From: Stichopus chloronotus
Taxonomy: Eukaryota > Echinodermata > Holothuroidea > Aspidochirotida > Stichopodidae
Direction of reading: 5' to 3'
DNA: 64,000 nucleotides
Assembly: GCA_021234535.1 (NCBI GenBank)
Contig: CM037850.1
Location: 2,790,001 to 2,854,000 of the forward strand
Part shown: positions 8,212 through 64,000 of the stretch, piece by piece
Layout: each line of letters starts with the position of its first letter
How positions within the stretch are numbered: the stretch's first letter is position 1
The notes under the pieces: model-generated
Seen by the model: the letters and a program-made list of their open reading frames with translations, nothing else
The model's database searches: none
What the model was told of the DNA's origin: nothing
Translations under genes and position numbers: made by a program

Positions 8212-8526
8212 ATGGCGATGACATCTGCGCAAAGAAAGGCTCTAGACAGGACCTTAGAAGTCCTGGCTGAGGATCTAGATGTCACTCCTGCTATTATTCA
8301 TCTGAAAAGCAAAGAAATTCTTCAAGATATTGACGAAGAGAAAATCAGCTCCAAAGTTACGGAGAAGGAAAAAGTCATGGAATTGGTGAAAATTATCAAA
8401 AAGCGAGGCAGGAAGGCCTTTCAAGCATTAATGGAGTACTTGGAGAATTGTTTAGGATCAGAGCATCTTGCAGAAGAATTGGATGAAAACTTAAAGACTG
8501 TCGAAGCAGAACTGGCTGGTCTAACA
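8212..8526 (+). CDS. CARD-GIMAP-Hint protein, exon 1: CARD domain (copy 1)
   Basis: First coding exon, residues 1-105, of a predicted ~963-residue protein. It encodes a helical death-fold domain best read as a CARD. Helix 1 begins QRKALDRTLEVL. The mid-domain LKSKEIL resembles the CARD 'L..K.IL' element. The C-terminal half VMELVKIIKKRGRKAF followed by LMEYLENC has the 'kGxxAFxxLxxxL' signature. CARDs mediate homotypic assembly in apoptosis and innate immune signalling, so this part probably recruits a partner or oligomerises the GTPase; that role is inferred. The donor is ACA|GTAAGA (phase 0). The start is the ATG at 8212 (AAGATGG context); the paralogue starts the same way with MAM. There is no signal peptide, so the protein should be cytosolic. 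A death-effector-like fold is the alternative reading. Confidence 0.82.
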
Positions 8527-9334
8527 GTAAGAACAAATATTTTCTGTAATCATTCATTCTTGAGACTCTCAATGAGACTTCATTTTTCCTTCACCTGTGA
8601 TCCTCCCTTCAGTAGCAATAGTTTGGTGGAGGTCAAAGGTCATTTGTGGTCAACAGGGATTAAATAGAGAGATCCTCGTAAACACAATATCACAAGAAGG
8701 GATGCTTGTAAAGATCCTATACTGTATGTGGGGTTCCTTATTGGGTACAAGAAGCCTATTGTTTTTGGTGGCGGTCAAAGGTCACTTGGGGTCAACAGCG
8801 ATCAAAATAGTGAAAGCATTGTAAACACGATATCTCAGAAAGCTTGCAATCATCGAAGCAACAATGCATGTGTTCATTCTGGTTGATAAATAGACATATT
8901 GTTCTCCATGGTAATCATACTTTACGTGTCAACCGTCAAAACCTTAGAGCAACATCACGTTTTTTTTCTCTGGGGGGAGGCGGAAAAACCGCTAGCAGAC
9001 GAAAGTTGTAAAGACGTACAGTTAATTAATGAGTGCAAAAGGTGAAATATCGGGGGAAAAAAATCATTTACTTGTTTCAAGCTCACATGTCGTTAGCCAC
9101 TACTTCATTATTAACAATTCCTTCCAAATGTCTAATAAGTCTTCCGAGTGAAGTGGAAAGTCGTTGAGATGTGAGATTTGTTATTACAAAACCATGTAAA
9201 CCAAATAAAGTTCTACTAATATGGAATGCTTACTGCAAGCAAACTTTCAAAACGTGATCCTATTGAATTAATCGTCTTCTAATTGAAATTGTCACAGAAG
9301 AAATACAATAAATTCTCGCTCTCTATCTCTTCAG
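8527..9334 (+). other. Intron 1 with two AGGTCA repeat units
   Basis: GTAAGA donor and CTCTATCTCTTCAG acceptor, phase 0. Two diverged ~145 bp units of the family A tandem repeat lie at about 8600-8850. The first holds a perfect AGGTCAAAGGTCA at 8630-8642 and the second GGTCAAAGGTCA near 8776. The rest is featureless AT-rich sequence. Confidence 0.75.
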
Positions 9335-9778
9335 CTGGAGAAAGATGGTAGAAGACAAATTGAGAAATGGAAGGAATTCGAAGAGAAATTCCACTATGGC
9401 AGATGTGTGCATGAAAGCATTGGAATGTACCAATATGTTCCGAATAGTGTGAATGTTCTGTTGGTAGGTAAAACTGGGTCTGGAAAAAGCGCCACCGGAA
9501 ACACAATCATTGGAAAAGATCATTTCAAAGCCAGTGGTACTAGTGCATCTGTTACTAAGACGATTGATATGAAAGACTTTCAGGAGGATAGATTTAACTT
9601 TACCGTCATCGACACCCCAGGATTGTTCGATACAGCTAAGGATTTTCGAAACGAAGAAATGTTACTAGAAATTGCAAAGACGATGATAACCTTCAAAGGA
9701 GGCATCCATCTCTTCCTTTTGGTATGCAGTTCGACGAGGTTTACTGCAGAAGAACAAGAAACTGTTAAAGTTATTGAG
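9335..9778 (+). CDS. CARD-GIMAP-Hint protein, exon 2: AIG1/GIMAP GTPase N-terminal part (copy 1)
   Basis: Second coding exon, residues 106-253, beginning with an amphipathic helix (KWKEFEEKF) that leads into an AIG1-type GTPase. The P-loop [13 protein letters not shown] starts at about residue 151. A candidate G2 Thr lies in the SASVTKTID segment. The G3 motif DTPG is at 198-201 within FTVIDTPGLFDT. The TRFTAEEQETVK segment is the conserved GIMAP box before G4. GIMAP/AIG1 proteins are septin-like GTPases that bind membranes and act in lymphocyte survival and plant defence; invertebrate members are often expanded in immune gene sets. The acceptor is CTTCAG|CTG and the donor GAG|GTATGT, both phase 0. 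The frame is open across the whole exon, and the same P-loop occurs at the same offset in copy 2. Confident as AIG1 family. Confidence 0.92.
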
Positions 9779-10492
9779 GTATGTGACCACTACTCTATCG
9801 ATTGTCAATGTGTTGCGCAATATATACCTTATTATATATACTCTATTTTAGTCGGTACACACTCCTAGTTTCGTATAACTTAGGTCTTTTTCGATAAATG
9901 TTTGATAATCTATTTTACCCTAAACTTTTCAGACATTAAAATTGCAAAGCGAATGAAATGCTATGAAGATCCTTATCTTCTACTTTAAAATGTCAGTCCC
10001 TCCAACCAGATTCATTTCTTTATTTCGGCGAGGTTCAGCTTGTTGGAAAACAACATTTTATTAGACCAGTTTTATCACCTCATGCTGTGATGATCCTTAT
10101 GGTCAATCGACTTCGTAATGTAGGGCAGTTGGGTCAATAAAAAGTCTAGGCTTTCTTGAACTGCATGTCAGGGTGTATTAGGTGTAATATCCATAGGCAA
10201 AACATGTGTAACTGATCGAGAAAAGAAAGGGTCTGTTGAATATTTAGTACATATCATAACACCATATTGCGCTGTGATTTCACTAACCACAGAAAGTTAC
10301 GAAATAATATATGTAGTTCGTGAATGGAAGTGAAACACGAGACCAAAACAATCAAGAAAGATCGTACTGGCATAACCAAGAGCAATCTATTCACCTGTAA
10401 AACGTAATCTACTTTAAGTTTGCGTGAGGTGTGCTCAATAAAACTTAAATAATAAGACAAAATCCTTCCAAACGGTAATTGTTTGAAGCGAT

Positions 10493-12183
10493 TTTTTGAT
10501 TCCTTGCCGTAGGCAGGGGAATCTATGCAGTCCTGATGTCGTGTGTGGATATGTATGTGTGTGTGTGTGTATGCGTGGGTGTGTGTAGGTGTGTGCGTGT
10601 GTGTGACGCTGCTCGTAAACGCTCTATCTCAAGAAGGGTAACTCTGAGTAATTTCATTTTTTGGCATGTAAGTTGCGCATATTGAATAGATGAACCCTAT
10701 TGTTTTTGATGGAGGTGAAAGGTCATTTAAGGTCACCAGAGGGCAAACTGTGAAAACCTTGTAAACACTCTATCTCAAGAAAGGTAACTGTGACTGATGT
10801 CATACTTGGTGTGTGGGTTGGTCATATTGAGTAGATGACCCCTATTGTTTTTGGTCCAGGTCAAAGGTCATTTGAGGTCACCAGAGGTGAAAATGTGTGA
10901 AAATCTTGTAAACACAATATCTCCAGAAGGGTAAGTGTGACTTATGTCAAACTAAGTGTATGGATTGTTCATATTAAACAAATGATACCTGTTGTTTGTG
11001 ATGGAGGTCAAAGGTCATTTGAGGTCACCGGGGGTCAAACTGTAAAAATCTTGTAAACACAATATCTCCAGAACAGTAACTGTGACTGATGTCATACGTA
11101 GTGTGTGGGTTGCTCATTTTGTGCAAATGATCCGTATTGCTTTTTGTGGAGATCAAAGGTCATTTGAGGTCACCAGAGGTCAAATTGTGAAAACCTTGTA
11201 AACACAATATCTCCAGAAGAGTAACTGTGACTGATGTCATTCTTAGTGTGTGGGTCGTTCATATAACGTAGATGATTCCTTTTGTTTTTGGTCGAGGTCA
11301 AAGATCATTTGAGGTCATCAGAGGTCAAATTGTGAAAACCTTTTAAACACAGTATCTCCAGAAGGGTAACTGTGACTGATGTCATACTTAGTGAGTGGAT
11401 TGAATATTGTCAGTAGAATACCCCTTTTGATTTTGGTGGAAGTCAATGGTCATGTGACGTCACCAAAGGTCAAACTGTGAAAACCTCGCAAACACATTAT
11501 CTCCGAGAGGGTAACTGTGACTGATGTCATACTTGGTGTGTGGGTTGGTCATATTAAGTAGATGATCCCTAACATCTTTGGTGAGGGGCAAAGGTCATTT
11601 GAGGTCACCAGAGGTCACACTGTAAAAACTTGAAAACACGATATCTCCAGAAAAGTAACCATGACTGATGTAGTACTTGGTGTGTGGGTTGGCAATGATG
11701 AGCAAAAGATCTCTATTGTTTTGGTTGAGGTCAAGGGTCATTTGAGGTCACCAGAGGTCGAACTGTAAAAATGTGTAAACACAATATCTCTAGGAGTCTA
11801 ACCTTGACTGATGTCTTACTTGATGTGTAGATTGTACATACTAAGTAAAAGACTTCTTTTGTTTGTGGTGGAGGTCAAAGGTCGTTTGAGTTCACCCGAG
11901 GTCAAACCCTTCCTAACACATTAACGCCAGAAGGGTAATGTTGACTGATGTCATACTTGATGTGTTGGTTGGCCATACTGGGTAGGTGATCTCTATTGCT
12001 TTTGGTGGATGTCAAATGTCACGGTCATTTCAGGTCACCAAAATAAAGGTCATTTTGGGGTAAAGGCTTGTGGTGTATCAAGAAAAATAACTGCAGTTGA
12101 TCTTATACCTGTCATGTGGATATTTTATGTTTGTTATAATATAACCATGTAGCAAGGAATCACAAAGCCTTTTGGCTTTCTGG
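10493..12183 (+). mobile_element. HINE/Helentron-like non-autonomous element, family A, complete copy
   Basis: The 5' part has GATTCCTTGC just inside an oligo-T tract, then a TG microsatellite (10555-10605). About ten tandem units of ~145 bp follow, each centred on a variant of AGGTCAAAGGTCATTTGAGG. The 3' part has GCAAGGAATC, the inverse of the 5' motif, followed by the hairpin AAAGCCTTTTGGCTTT (12164-12179) and CTGG. Subterminal inverted repeats, a microsatellite, tandem core units and a 3' hairpin with CTRR match the Helentron-derived HINE / 'pearl' layout known from molluscs and flies. The boundaries and family name are inferred; the structure is seen directly. There is no coding capacity. 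Confidence 0.7.
10612..12060 (+). repeat. Tandem array of ~145 bp units with AGGTCA half-sites
   Basis: About ten degenerate head-to-tail units. Each contains variants of 'AACACAATATCTCCAGAAG', 'GTGACTGATGTCATACTT', a TTGTTTTTGGT box and the AGGTCA cluster. Perfect AGGTCAAAGGTCA occurs at 10858-10870 and 11005-11017; other units carry one or two substitutions. Related units occur at 8600-8850, 22100-22300 and 23380-24460. Confidence 0.85.
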
Positions 12184-13996
12184 TTAGTGTTGTATGTCAA
12201 ATAACCTCGACGTATATCGTACTCTTTCTGTCGCTGCCTTAGGCAATTAAGAATCAGATAGCCTCTTCGAGAGTAGACCTCAACCACTTACATCTTAATT
12301 GCTCCTTTACATGCGAGCTCTTCAACTAAATGTGCAAACTCAGTAAAATCACAACTCAGTAGGTTCCACTCTGGCGAAGCAATCCTTTACAGTCGAAAGA
12401 AGGGTATAGTCTCGATGTCATTTACCCACAACAGGCATTAAGCTCACAGTATTTCAAGTTTGAATGTTTGTTCATAGATACTTGGAGAGAATGTTCAATT
12501 CCTATTGGCCCATTTCAGTCAGGTGACCATGGGTTAATCGCTGATAACCCAACTTGTTAAACCGTAGTCAATCACCGACGGATGAATACAATAAAACTGT
12601 ACAGGGTAGATTGACAGTGTGTTTTCAGTCTGCTATATCTTACACAAAACAATGGCTAATACAGTATTACTAGTAATAGCAGTTAAATGACGTTCAATCT
12701 GAAGTTCGTAGATCTAACGTTACCTAGGCGGCGCCTGGGGCCTAAGGCCTGCTCAAAAGTAAAATGTAAATGTAGGTAACTCTACGAGACTACGTAACAA
12801 CAGCACAGTATACTGTCAGTGGTAATTCTTCTGACGTAGGATAATCTTACATGACTATCAGAATTGTATCGGGTGAAAGCTTCTTCAGTATATTTTGAAC
12901 ACCTTTGAAAGTTTGACAGCCTACCGAAATAAACTTTTCTTCTTTGCATAATTCTGCTGAGATGTTCAGAAACAATTCCCTATGCAATCAAATCGCAAAG
13001 AGGACTAAGGATTGCAATTCATCGCCATCTTGAAGGGTCTCCATACAACCACCGAATTAATATTGTTAAGGACAGAGAACTCCACAGTACAAATAATTTA
13101 GGCCTGTTGATAGACCTAAGCCCTGTGTGATGAAGAAATATTAAGCAGGGAAGGCCTTGACTTGAGCTATCCCAGACCAGTCATACAGTGATCTTACAGC
13201 AATGTTTTGACAGTAACGTTTTGAGCATGAGCAATCCTTTTTCTTTGTTGCACTAACTTAGGCCTAGTTCCGAAATTTTGCATAGCCTACTGAGAACATT
13301 CACACTAACAGGAAAATTAGGGTTTGCAAACAACAAGTCTTCCGCTTACTGAACCACAGCATGCACACATTAGTACACTACCCAAAAGCAAACTAACTAA
13401 AGCAGGCATTGTTACTATGTCAATTGTTATTGTTCCTCTTTGTGACTAAGTTTTACTTTCTGTTTCGCGCACGAATATTGTTGACATGTTTTAAATTTTT
13501 TTACCTTTTCTCGGGGTCCCTTTTCAACAAAAATGCGGTTATTTAAGAAGCAATGTCCTTTCTTTCTGCGTGCATTTTTTATAAAAATTCCGTTGGTATG
13601 TATGAATAAGGGTAATCAACTTTGTACCTGTGTATTAACTGTAGTATAATGCTCTCGGGGGGGGGGGGGGGGGTTATCGCATCGCTTTACCCCCGATCGT
13701 GCATTATCCTACGTCTAATACACTGTCCCGCGTTGATTGACCTTTAATTAAACGTATGCTCCATTACGATGATAGATAAGTGAACGTTCATTAAAGAGCG
13801 TAAATAGAATAAGACGAAGACAACGATAAATCACATATATTTAATTATACGTGAATTCATTTAATTATTACTGTATTTATTGTAATAAAATTCCTAACTG
13901 AAACTCAGTACTACAGTATTTCAAGCATAAAGTAACTCACATGAAGTTTACCTCATAATTGCAACAAATTATTTCTCGGTCGAATTTTTTTTACAG

Positions 13997-16129
13997 GAAG
14001 TACTAACCAAGAATGTGTACAAGAACTGTGTGGTAATTTTGACGTACGCACGTGCTCAATATGGTGCTAAAGGTAAACATTCTTTGCGAGAACACATCAC
14101 CAACGAACTTCAACGAGAGGGTAAATTTGCCGAATTAATTAAACGAGTTGGCAAGAGAGTAATTGCTGTCGAAAATTTCTTTGACGATGACTTTCTGAAA
14201 GAAAAGCATCGCCAAAGCCTTCTGTGCTATCTCGCCCAGGTAATAGAGGGAAATAAAGGATCTGTTTATTCTAACAAGGCATTCGAAAATGCTCGACTAA
14301 GAGTTGAAACGCAGGATAAACAGAGGAAGGAAAGGATTCAAAGGGAAACAGAACTAACAACCATGAGATCACAAATTCGTGCATTTCTCGTACAAAAGTA
14401 TTTAAACGACCTGACAGTGAAACAGCTAGACAATATATACGGTCATTTTAAGACAGACTTGCTCTTCATCATGGCAAGGTCAGGCGTGAAGCAGCTTCCC
14501 TGCATCACGAATGACGATGTCAAGGGATACTTAAAGGACTTCATTGAAGAAAATGGTGTTCTAATAGCAAAGTTGAAGGATATGAAGATACAAGATGAGG
14601 AGCAAAGAAAAGAATACTCGAGAAGACGACAACAGCTGAAGGAAAAGGAAAACATGAACAAGATGCAGGGCATCGTTCTGCCTTTGGTGAGTGATTACTT
14701 GAAACAACTCTCGAAAGAAGACCTAGAAGAAATAGTCCAAAAGAGAGTGTTGCCTCATGAGGTCATGAATACTCTGAAGGAGAGTCTTGCGGCATCTCGT
14801 ATAGAATTGCAGAGTACACACGTCACAAAATACATCGATGAAACTTTCTTCCAAAATCCCACTGAAATAAGAAGGCATATCGATGCTAAAATTTTAGCAA
14901 AGCGTTTAGAAGAAAAGTCAATTCAACTTAAGAAATTGCAGAGAGATCAAAAAATGAATGCTACGATGGAAGTAGTTAAGACAAAACTTCCTGAAGCATT
15001 AGATGGCAAAAACGATGACGAAATACATGAACTCCGCAGTGACTTGCAAAACGTTGAAACATGTGTCACAACTAAATGGGAAGAGCTCTTTGGTGAGCTT
15101 ATCGGGAATGAGATTGCAAACACTGATATTACTCTGAGCGAAATATCTAATTTACATTTAAAGCAAAATGCCAATCTCATTGAAAGTGTCATGTCGACTA
15201 TTCTCGAAAAGCGACAAAAAGAGAGGGAGGCAAAAGAAAAACAGGTAAGGGAGGTATTAAGAAACACTGCACTCAGTAAGATTTCGGAAGTCATTAAAGA
15301 TGACCTGGAATCGTATCTTGCAGGAAAGAACACTAGTGAGCTACAATCTTTAGATTCAAAGATATCTGAAGGGGAGGTTCCTGACGATATTTACGATAAA
15401 GTATGCTCAGAGTTGACACTGGCTCAGAAGAATTCTCTGAGTAGAACTGAAATAGAAAAAGAAATCATTACTCAAATAAAAGCCCAGAATGAGATAATCG
15501 AACAATGTAGAAGAGATGCGAAGTGCTTCTCTGGATCAAGTAAAGTGACAATTAAAGGGAGAGGTATTTCCAAAATATCACACGTAAAAGTCGGTGATGA
15601 AATACTCGTCTTTGATGACGAAGGTGTTTCTTTTTTTGATAAAGTCTATCTTATATCTCACGCAAGAGATGAAGAGAATATAGCCTTTATTCTTTTAAAA
15701 ACATTCTCTGGTAAAGAACTTTTTATATCCCCTGGTCATTTGATACCTGTTGGTAATCTATCTAGGAATGTTGCAGCCAAAGACTTGGCCGTCGGTGATG
15801 TCATATTTACACTGACGAATGGCGCTATGACGTCAGACTCTGTTACTTCCATTTCATACGAACTTTGTCGGGGGGCTTATTGTCCCATGACAATGAATGG
15901 GACTATTGTTGTCAATGACGTAGCAGCATCATGTTATACAAATTTCGTCCCATATCGTGCCGCTCATATTTTGCTCTCTCCGATCAGAGTTCTCTTCAGT
16001 TACCTTCCTTTGCCTCTCTTTCATAAGTTACTTCCTTATGATGAGGAGGAAGGGATGCCGATCTTTCTTATTACGTGCCGTTCTTTAGTCTCTGCTTGGC
16101 GATCCTTGGCCAGTAGATTTTACGTTTAG
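13997..16129 (+). CDS. CARD-GIMAP-Hint protein, exon 3: end of AIG1 domain, four helical repeats, Hedgehog-type Hint domain (copy 1)
   Basis: Terminal coding exon, residues 254-963, ending at TAG 16127-16129. Residues 254 to about 315 complete the AIG1 fold; the usual G4 T/N-K-x-D is replaced by TYAR (269-272), so nucleotide specificity may differ. Residues ~375-762 form four ~100-residue helical repeats, each opening with a pattern like YLKQLSKEDLEEI (near 388, 487, 587 and 693) and ending in a charged coiled coil. From Cys763 the chain is a Hedgehog-type Hint domain. It has CFSGSSKV, VGDEILV, SPGHL (Ser831 and His834 match T69 and H72 of the Hog domain), LAVGDVI, and NDVAASCY with Cys899 matching the late conserved Cys. 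The hydrophobic AHILLSPIRVLFSYL tail then resembles the Hedgehog sterol-recognition region. This predicts self-cleavage before Cys763, possibly with lipid transfer. The residue matching the sterol-activating Asp46 is His808. Acceptor TTTACAG|GAA, phase 0. Confidence 0.9.
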   Translation, partial: EVLTKNVYKNCVVILTYARAQYGAKGKHSLREHITNELQREGKFAELIKRVGKRVIAVENFFDDDFLKEKHRQSLLCYLAQVIEGNKGSVYSNKAFENARLRVETQDKQRKERIQRETELTTMRSQIRAFLVQKYLNDLTVKQLDNIYGHFKTDLLFIMARSGVKQLPCITNDDVKGYLKDFIEENGVLIAKLKDMKIQDEEQRKEYSRRRQQLKEKENMNKMQGIVLPLVSDYLKQLSKEDLEEIVQKRVLPHEVMNTLKESLAASRIELQSTHVTKYIDETFFQNPTEIRRHIDAKILAKRLEEKSIQLKKLQRDQKMNATMEVVKTKLPEALDGKNDDEIHELRSDLQNVETCVTTKWEELFGELIGNEIANTDITLSEISNLHLKQNANLIESVMSTILEKRQKEREAKEKQVREVLRNTALSKISEVIKDDLESYLAGKNTSELQSLDSKISEGEVPDDIYDKVCSELTLAQKNSLSRTEIEKEIITQIKAQNEIIEQCRRDAKCFSGSSKVTIKGRGISKISHVKVGDEILVFDDEGVSFFDKVYLISHARDEENIAFILLKTFSGKELFISPGHLIPVGNLSRNVAAKDLAVGDVIFTLTNGAMTSDSVTSISYELCRGAYCPMTMNGTIVVNDVAASCYTNFVPYRAAHILLSPIRVLFSYLPLPLFHKLLPYDEEEGMPIFLITCRSLVSAWRSLASRFYV

Positions 16130-39202: not shown

Positions 39203-39961
39203 CTAGATTTTTTTTTTTTTTCTGGTAGATAGTTTTATGTCTCGTCCAGTAAACTTGGTAGTCTGTACCCTGTCATTAAGTACTCGATTGAATCTTTCAA
39301 TCTCACTATTATCTTTGGGATTATAGATGGCAGGAAACCGATGTTTAATATTACGTTCCTGCATGTAGGTCTTAAAATCATTACAACTACATTGTAGTCC
39401 ATTGTCAGTCACAATCTCTTCTGGGAATCCTTCCCTTGAAAAAATAGTTGTAAGTGTATGAATTACAGTAGAAGCAGTAATATTGCAAGCAAATGCAACT
39501 TCCGGTCATTAACTCTAGTAGTCAATAACCGTAATAGTAAAACGACAATCTCTTAGTGCTGTATTATCAGGACCAACAATATCAATATCAGTTTTCTTCC
39601 AACCGGAAGTGGGTAAAGGGACAGGTTGCATAGGACCAGTTCGCACACGTGCTGATTTGTCATGATTTTGACAAATTGCACAATCTTTAACCATTTGCAT
39701 AACAGTATCATCCATCTTAGGCCACCAATATAAGTGACACAATCTTTGTTTGGTGCGAACTATCATACACTGATGACCTTCGTAGGCGAAATCAACAATC
39801 TTAGAAATAAAAGTAAATGGAATAACAACTCTCTCTGCTGTAAAAATTACTTTATAATGCATTGACAAACTTTCACCGACTCTGTTAAAAGGCAACAAAT
39901 CGTCAGCTAAACCTTTAGCAGAAAAAGGCCAGCCGGAATAAAAGGAAGTTGACAACGTCAC
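39203..39961 (-). pseudogene. Gypsy integrase zinc-binding and catalytic core fragments
   Basis: On the minus strand, 39961-39515 holds the HHCC zinc-binding region (AYEGHQCMIVRTKQRL, WWPKMDD, CAICQNHDKS) and the start of the RNase H-like core (DIDIVGPDNTA). A frame break follows. 39412-39203 then gives TDNGLQ, with the second catalytic Asp, and NPKDNSEIERFNRVL, with the catalytic Glu. Integrase would insert the element's cDNA. Broken by frameshift and stops. Confidence 0.8.
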
Positions 39962-63067: not shown

Positions 63068-63376
63068 ATGGCTATGTCGGAAGAACAACGAAATACCTTA
63101 GACCGATGTCTTGTTATCCTGGTGGAGAACTTAGATGTCAATGATGCCTCAGTACATCTACAAAGCAAAGGGATACTAAATGATGCAGATGTAGACTTTA
63201 TCCGTGCAAAACCAGAAACAAGAGAACAAATCAGGGAATTCGTGAGAATCTTGAAAAGAAAAGGAGATACCGCCTACCCGCAATTCAGAGACTACTTGGT
63301 AATCAATGCAAATCACATAGGAACATCCCTCGACGAAGCGTTTTCTCTAATTGAAGAGGAAAAACACGGTGTACTG
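63068..63376 (+). CDS. CARD-GIMAP paralogue, exon 1: CARD domain (copy 2)
   Basis: Residues 1-103 from ATG 63068 (AAAGATGGC), starting MAM like copy 1. In an ungapped hand alignment 31 of the first 66 residues are identical to copy 1. Shared positions include QR-LDR, the LDV element, HL-SK-IL and the CARD-like L+RKG segment (EFVRILKRKGDTAY). I place the donor at CTG|GTAATC (63376/63377) because it is phase 0 and falls at the position equivalent to the copy 1 donor. The reading frame runs 12 codons further into the intron. The role is presumed the same: a homotypic adaptor-binding or oligomerisation domain in front of a GIMAP GTPase. The intron that follows is only ~390 bp and lacks the AGGTCA units found in copy 1. 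Confidence 0.8.
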
Positions 63377-63766
63377 GTAATCATATTTAAAGCACTTAAG
63401 CTACTTGGTTAACTTTACCACTGCAACCCACACCTCTCAAGGAAAAGAGATGCAATAATTCGAAAATAAAAGAAATAACCTTGGATCAACATGCATAAGC
63501 TTCTTACCAAAATTGGGCTTCTTTTACTCATATATATTATGTTCTTCCTTGCCCTTTGTAAGACTAGTTTCCGAGCGTCTCGTTAGAGAACAAATATAAT
63601 AATTACGTTGCACTACATACTTTTTCTGCATTCTAGAAGTTACCGTAGATTGAAACTTCTTATTGTCTTGCTGAAAAATTGAACGGTTGCGGATATGTAA
63701 GCAATTTTATCTTGTTTGTTTTATTTCTCTTCACTCATAACGATTTTGCGGTAATTTTCATAACAG
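63377..63766 (+). other. Intron 1 of copy 2
   Basis: GTAATC donor and TTCATAACAG acceptor, phase 0, 390 bp. No repeat units recognised. Confidence 0.65.
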
Positions 63767-64000
63767 GAAATAAGAAAAACAGAACAACAAAGGAGCCATT
63801 GGCAAGGCTTTGAAAAAAGGTTTTATGCATTTGGATGCCAATACGAGACCTTAAATCAGTATGAATCCATCCCAGGTGAAATAAACATTGTACTGATAGG
63901 CAAAACCGGATCTGGAAAGAGCGCCACTGGGAATACTATTTTGGGGGATCCAGAGGTCTTTGCAGAAAGTGATGATCGCAGTATACCCGAAACGAAAGAA
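63767..64000 (+). CDS. CARD-GIMAP paralogue, exon 2: AIG1/GIMAP GTPase start (copy 2, cut by window end)
   Basis: Opens after AACAG with [19 protein letters not shown], the counterpart of the amphipathic helix in copy 1. The P-loop [13 protein letters not shown] begins at exon residue 46, exactly as in copy 1 (protein residue 149 here). After it the sequence diverges ([11 protein letters not shown]) and the window ends before G3. The frame is open to base 64000. It is an AIG1-type GTPase in direct orientation with copy 1, about 47 kb away. Whether it also ends in a Hint domain cannot be seen from this window. Confidence 0.9.

Follow-up and report, generated by a model that had tools for sequence, protein, structure and literature searches.

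The 64,000-nucleotide stretch of the Stichopus chloronotus genome analysed here (the window; C22:2790001-2854000 of a 719 Mb assembly) carries on its forward strand a three-exon gene for a protein that combines, in order, a CARD, an AIG1/GIMAP GTPase, approximately 400 amino acids of helices and a Hedgehog-type Hint domain with its sterol-recognition region (Table 1). The three exons join in frame to give 963 codons and a stop, and both introns are phase 0 and bounded by GT and AG in the window sequence, as an earlier note on this DNA had claimed. That note had also placed the end of the GTPase and the Hint domain on one exon, and exon 3 is indeed a single open frame that matches both profiles.

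Table 1. Positions in the window of the CARD-GIMAP-Hint gene, its functional sites and the next family member.
Feature	Position	Strand	Basis
Exon 1: ATG and CARD (Pfam stretch residues 9-90), 105 codons, phase 0	8212..8526	+	Pfam CARD, GT donor
Exon 2: first half of AIG1/GIMAP GTPase, P-loop GKTGSGKS (9467-9490), DTPG	9335..9778	+	Pfam AIG1, GIMAP7 structure 3zjc
Exon 3: AIG1 remainder (to about 14308), helical region, Hint, sterol-recognition region, stop	13997..16129	+	Single open frame, Pfam
Helical region, about four long-helix units	14309..15514	+	P0009 model secondary structure, unit profile comparison
Hint and sterol-recognition region, 204 amino acids	15515..16126	+	
Cys codon, predicted nucleophile (fly Hh Cys258, C1)	15524..15526	+	Alignment to fly Hh, family rows, own copies
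His codon at general-base position (fly Hh Asp303, D46)	15659..15661	+	Alignment to fly Hh
SxxH replacing TxxH	15728..15739	+	Alignment to fly Hh, family rows, own copies
Second Cys (fly Hh Cys400)	15932..15934	+	Alignment to fly Hh, family rows, own copies
H....P.R motif, first sterol-recognition helix	15965..15988	+	Family rows, own copies, motif as given in excerpts of PMC7906309
Start of next family member: CARD exon and beginning of AIG1 exon	63068..64000	+	

The domain calls of the earlier note hold in profile searches. For the joined protein Pfam returned CARD at 3.4e-11, AIG1 at 3.6e-43 and Hint at 1.4e-29, all over the curated cut-offs, and each exon scores when taken alone: exon 1 for CARD (3.4e-13, 49.9 bits against a cut-off of 23.9), exon 2 for AIG1 (6.3e-32) and exon 3 for Hint (8.8e-30) and for AIG1 at 5.9e-5, the latter equal to 22.9 bits and so under the 27-bit cut-off. 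The AIG1 profile reaches 147.8 bits against a cut-off of 27, and the P-loop and DTPG are present in the window protein and its relatives. The Hint profile, PF01079, scores 103.6-107 bits against a cut-off of 29.7; the earlier note had allowed that the C-terminus might fit a non-Hint family better, but the runner-up in the Hint region is PT-HINT (0.033-0.11) and no non-Hint family competes. No match to HH_signal (Hedge) is present in the 963-amino-acid protein (Pfam, E 1).

The solved structure nearest to the CARD is that of CED-3 (E 1.7e-5), followed weakly by Apaf-1, and the AIG1 half on exon 2 is closest by sequence to the structures of GIMAP7, 4 and 5 (GIMAP7 3zjc, E 4.9e-18). The predicted Hint fold is nearest to the fly Hedgehog (Hh) Hint, with the D46H mutant and the wild type tied, and two Hh structures outscore the listed inteins in the fold comparison. 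Splicing by inteins requires a C-terminal Asn with an extein after it; here the Hint domain ends ASCY and continues into the sterol region, then a stop. Together the Hint and sterol-recognition part ends in helices of hydrophobic sequence. The full-length AlphaFold2 model of P0009, an Apostichopus japonicus relative described below, is poor (mean predicted local distance difference test score 65.7, with much of the Hint part <50) and was used for the CARD and the helical layout only; Foldseek on this model ranks GIMAPs first. The four helical repeats of the earlier note stand in part: the model has four units, each a long helix with short helices, but only units 1 and 2 match clearly by profile (E 8e-7, probability 84%), units 3 and 4 matching weakly (E 2e-4, 21%) and the remaining four of the six unit pairs giving no profile match. 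No Pfam family was found in the helical region at E 1 or better, and the idea that the units are hidden CARDs was rejected, none of four profile comparisons giving a match.

The gene is one of a family in this genome, for which match counts are lower bounds. PF01079 matches at least 15 places, all above the cut-off, of which 14 are GIMAP-type and one is Hedgehog. The latter (L001, C7:5126631-5130278) is identified as the true Hedgehog because it lies downstream of the only two Hedge exon matches found in the genome. Twelve of the GIMAP-type Hints are on C22, eight of them inside C22:2.80-3.00 Mb, and two are on C185. CARD, AIG1 and Hint exons occur in order for 10 of the 14 copies; the CARD of L006 is located in L032, and that of L009 is the one at window position 63068, if this is one gene with two AIG1 parts. 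Beyond the window end come another piece of exon 3, a second exon for AIG1 and a Hint at C22:2864689, which together with this start probably make up one gene. The window gene has a duplicate approximately 100 kb away, introns included, at 97.8-97.9% identity. Four copies (L002-L005) form a second subfamily, in which the Hint is 37-40% identical to that of the window. One of these four, at C22:13.33 Mb (L024, C22:13329600-13339500), has frames upstream of AIG1 that match CARD weakly (0.0098), DED weakly (0.0025) and CARD (2.2e-6), and the death-fold part seems to have been exchanged there.

The evidence of the 14 copies is not fully independent, as the Hints of L003, L004 and L005 are identical and those of L007 and L008 are one residue apart. 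The Hint tree is mostly unresolved, with four of 20 inner branches starred, and its midpoint root and long Hh row are uninformative on origin. In one copy (L014/L020) the frame of exon 3 is broken. A neighbour immediately upstream of the window (L033, C22:2778000-2787900), with CARD and AIG1 and with exon 3 broken and partly missing, appears to be a decayed member. AIG1 matches with identical scores and no Hint match there occur on C19, C39, C66, C101, C105 and C232, and look like repeated or unplaced copies of one cluster; C8 also has AIG1 with no Hint match on the contig.

The family extends to other sea cucumber sequences. The earlier note had proposed a search of echinoderm proteomes for AIG1 with Hint, and a protein search with the Hint part yielded 10 proteins that each have both domains, eight of them from A. 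japonicus, together with P0011 (ENA) and P0012. Precomputed domains include a CARD in seven of the eight A. japonicus proteins, the exception being P0006, and two AIG1 stretches were found in five of the seven that were scanned (P0004 was omitted from that scan). The 977-amino-acid P0009 is co-linear with the window protein, with no gaps in five measured blocks, which skip window residues 101-139 and 756-762; identity is 78% in the CARD, 68% in AIG1, 50% in the helical part, 67% in Hint and 69% in the sterol region. P0006, as BSL78_09939, is listed with a fold change of 1.65 in a table of differential proteins from sea cucumber (PMC12924188; published work is cited here and below from excerpts), which shows that a product is reported, the part of the protein being unspecified. 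P0012 has a weak DED match at residues 25-86 (4.4e-4, below the cut-off) in the place of the CARD. Another sequence, the JGI protein P0013, has a hydrophobic start; its Hog domain carries H-P-R and, read by eye, Asp as the general base. Relatives from amphioxus, coral and snail were not named in the three protein searches, for which a short-word filter or length limits may be the explanation, and this is not evidence of absence.

These relatives and paralogues bear on whether exons of two genes have been wrongly joined, as could be suspected from intron 2, which is long (4.2 kb) and rich in repeats. However, a single exon carries both the last part of AIG1 and the Hint, and A. japonicus proteins carry CARD, AIG1 and Hint co-linearly, though mostly as gene predictions themselves; P0012 has a death-fold-like start, AIG1 and Hint within a single 977-amino-acid frame on a 3,694-base contig. 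Paralogues share the exon layout. In a survey of splice sites in 10 rows (the window and nine paralogous exon sets, with several boundaries extended by 3-24 bases to the end of the query) GT follows exon 1 in seven of eight rows, the eighth boundary being guessed, AG precedes exon 2 in eight of 10, and both the GT after exon 2 and the AG before exon 3 are present in all 10. The junction of exons 2 and 3 lies inside a measured block of the P0009 alignment, that of exons 1 and 2 in the unmeasured stretch of window residues 101-139. A joining artefact is therefore highly improbable and was rejected on the shared AIG1/Hint exon, the co-linear P0009 and the paralogues.

The active site of the Hint domain was compared in 11 family rows, one being exon 3 of the window, and in the 14 own-genome copies, one being that of the window. 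The nucleophilic Cys, SxxH and the second Cys are invariant in all 11 rows and all 14 copies. The general-base position is likewise His throughout (11/11 and 14/14), and is Asp in the animal's own Hedgehog; the same column is at least 90% His in a 12-row alignment. Nematode Hogs may also have His at this position. The H-P-R motif is found in all 11 rows and in 13 of the 14 copies, L002 having Gln for His. The own Hedgehog, L001, has Ser where fly has Cys400 (AASSY). Fly Hh with an engineered D303H change is still active and structurally intact, accepts more sterols and is more active on coprostanol and epicoprostanol (PMC9163320), and in human SHH a mutation in the H-P-R helix impairs cholesterolysis (PMC7906309). 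Ratios of nonsynonymous to synonymous substitution (dN/dS) for the Hint and sterol region were 0.12-0.27 in all 28 pairs among eight of the 14 copies, many of the dS values being >1.5 and near saturation, and 0.19-0.27 in the four pairs with dS <1. Omitted were the second subfamily (L002-L005), L008, which is almost the same as the window copy, and L014, whose frame is broken upstream; another four pairs were listed separately. Purifying selection acts on the Hint.

Vertebrate GIMAPs have a C-terminal anchor, and the Hint and sterol region could be a folded membrane-binding or clustering tail that replaces it and is no longer an enzyme. The region ends in hydrophobic helices, the residue before the putative cut is variable, and membrane binding is described for the SHH sterol region (PMC7906309). 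Against this, all five catalytic positions are among the 48 invariant columns of the 138 in Hint while approximately two thirds of the columns vary, which has a chance of 0.004 if columns and rows are independent, an assumption that related rows do not fully satisfy. Loss of enzyme activity is thus distinctly unlikely.

The reading favoured here, at a probability of roughly 0.45, is that the family consists of cytosolic CARD-GIMAP GTPases produced as self-processing precursors, with a sterol anchor as the likeliest outcome. A cytosolic precursor is suggested because all eight CARD exons examined start with ATG and the Hedge domain is absent, and the window protein is apparently cytosolic as judged from its start, MAMTSAQRK, and the CARD. 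Also in favour of this reading, H-P-R is kept in all but one of the own copies, fly D303H is active, the predicted Hint fold is nearest to fly Hh and a product of P0006 is reported. From the gene, its domains, their conservation and the intact active-site residues, the following chemical and signalling steps can be proposed. The Hint would convert the bond preceding its first Cys to a thioester, which a small nucleophile aided by the His general base would resolve, releasing the Hint part. The likeliest nucleophile would be a membrane sterol bound by the H-P-R motif, so that the CARD-GTPase-helical part would be left with a sterol esterified to its C-terminus. This part would then be on a membrane, where clustering driven by the GTPase, as expected of the GIMAP and CARD families, could gather the CARDs and recruit CARD proteins, e.g. 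caspases.

Several observations weigh against this proposal. From L002 to L015 the residue before the Cys reads H, Y, Y, Y, W, K, K, E, W, A, E, K, K and W (Lys762 in the window protein), with Gly in none of the 14, and Gly is found there in only one of the 11 family rows, the others having T, E, K or I; the own Hedgehog has Gly directly before the Cys. In Hedgehog it is this Gly that forms the thioester, which is displaced by sterol (PMC13060885), and a non-Gly residue is not what would be expected of a site tuned for rapid transfer of sterol. Conservation speaks well for thioester formation, but not for an efficient transfer to sterol. The Thr of TxxH has become Ser in all 14 own copies and is retained in the own Hedgehog. 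The processing part of Hedgehog is reported to stay in the endoplasmic reticulum (PMC4695875), whereas the window protein is apparently cytosolic. Since the fourth GTPase motif, LT(Y/N)ARA in the window protein and in nine of 13 P-loop copies scanned, is not a usual guanine-specificity motif, GTP is no more than a predicted ligand. Cleavage and lipid attachment in the family are themselves predictions, the former backed by the conservation of the catalytic residues and by purifying selection, the latter by conservation of H-P-R, with the lack of Gly before the scissile bond counting against it.

Inteins tolerate a variable or bulky residue before the cut. The residue in the sea cucumber family is variable and often bulky, and the catalytic Cys and His are conserved, as would also suit self-cleavage without lipid, in which the thioester is hydrolysed or taken by another thiol or amine and the Hint only cuts or regulates the precursor, a role that autoproteolysis has in other death-fold proteins. 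An Hh Hint lacking the sterol region cleaves by hydrolysis (PMC4695875), and the ZU5 autopeptidase of PIDD is named as a processing domain adopted by the apoptosis system (PMC3482391). Such a role sits poorly with the retention of sterol-recognition H-P-R in 13 of 14 own copies and with a sterol region whose conservation equals that of the Hint in comparison with P0009 (69% and 67%), albeit less so against P0012 (36% and 50%), making cleavage alone rather unlikely.

According to a 2015 review, modification of proteins by cholesterol seems to be limited to the Hedgehog family (PMC4695875). This can be tested directly in a conserved multigene family whose immune GTPase is apparently intracellular and has kept its Hint and sterol region intact. 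The family is of value for this intact Hog tail and for the natural His general base beside an Asp-bearing Hedgehog; the family supplies natural instances, in one genome with the Asp form, of a general base previously made in the laboratory. Instead of cholesterol, sea cucumbers make lathosterol and 14-methylcholest-9(11)-enol in large amounts (PMC9236903). It could be speculated that a natural Asp-to-His swap made the Hedgehog tail a general sterol/alcohol ligase for intracellular immune GTPases, and that CARD-GIMAPs are anchored via lathosterol or a 14-methyl sterol; this is unlikely as it stands, and if true, protein sterylation would not be confined to Hedgehog. Adaptation to the sterol pool was rejected as the explanation of the His, because the Hedgehog of the same genome keeps Asp and sterols alone cannot account for the difference. 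The swap would therefore be a feature of the GIMAP branch rather than a general adjustment to the sterols of the animal.

Elsewhere in the window, intron 2 holds a tandem array (10625-12021; period 145, approximately 9.7 copies) with AGGTCA half-sites. A perfect AGGTCAAAGGTCA, which we take to be a DR1-like nuclear-receptor motif, occurs three times in the window, two of them in this array and one at 8630 in intron 1, against 0.01 expected. On the reverse strand, at 39515-39961, lies a fragment with an integrase H2C2 zinc-binding domain (2.4e-9), likely a retroelement remnant.

The gene family is real, conserved and apparently functional, and its architecture is already in print, here as a variant, so that the earlier note was wrong to state that no link of a Hog domain to a CARD or GIMAP GTPase had been described. 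Among the papers listed from open-licence literature on GIMAP/AIG1 with Hint, CARD or sea cucumber, none was seen to describe the sea cucumber family itself. One of the nearest known systems is in amphioxus, where CARD, AIG1 and HINT occur in the same order in a fast-changing gene family; the combination is reported from amphioxus and a few fungi and was termed unique to amphioxus among animals (PMC12373286), a status that the sea cucumber family corrects, although the likeness is one of domain order by description only. AIG1 with a C-terminal Hedgehog-type Hint, as here, is reported in the coral Acropora millepora (PMC3723955) and the snail Biomphalaria glabrata (PMC7053062), but in the excerpts of these reports the coral proteins are described without a CARD and the death-domain and Hint architectures of the snail are listed separately. 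GmGIN1 of the fungus Glomus mosseae likewise joins an AIG1-like GTPase to a Hog domain and has no signal peptide, with no CARD reported in the excerpted text (PMC2362128). The C-terminal domain of Hedgehog (1AT0, 6TYY and the own L001) shares the fold, the Cys nucleophile, the TxxH-type His and H-P-R, whereas the sea cucumber family has a CARD and GTPase for the Hedge domain, His for Asp, SxxH and a non-Gly residue before the predicted cut. With vertebrate GIMAPs (structures of GIMAP2, 5 and 7) the family has the AIG1 fold, P-loop and DTPG in common, and to these the sea cucumber protein adds a CARD, a long helical region and a Hint, with the fourth motif altered.

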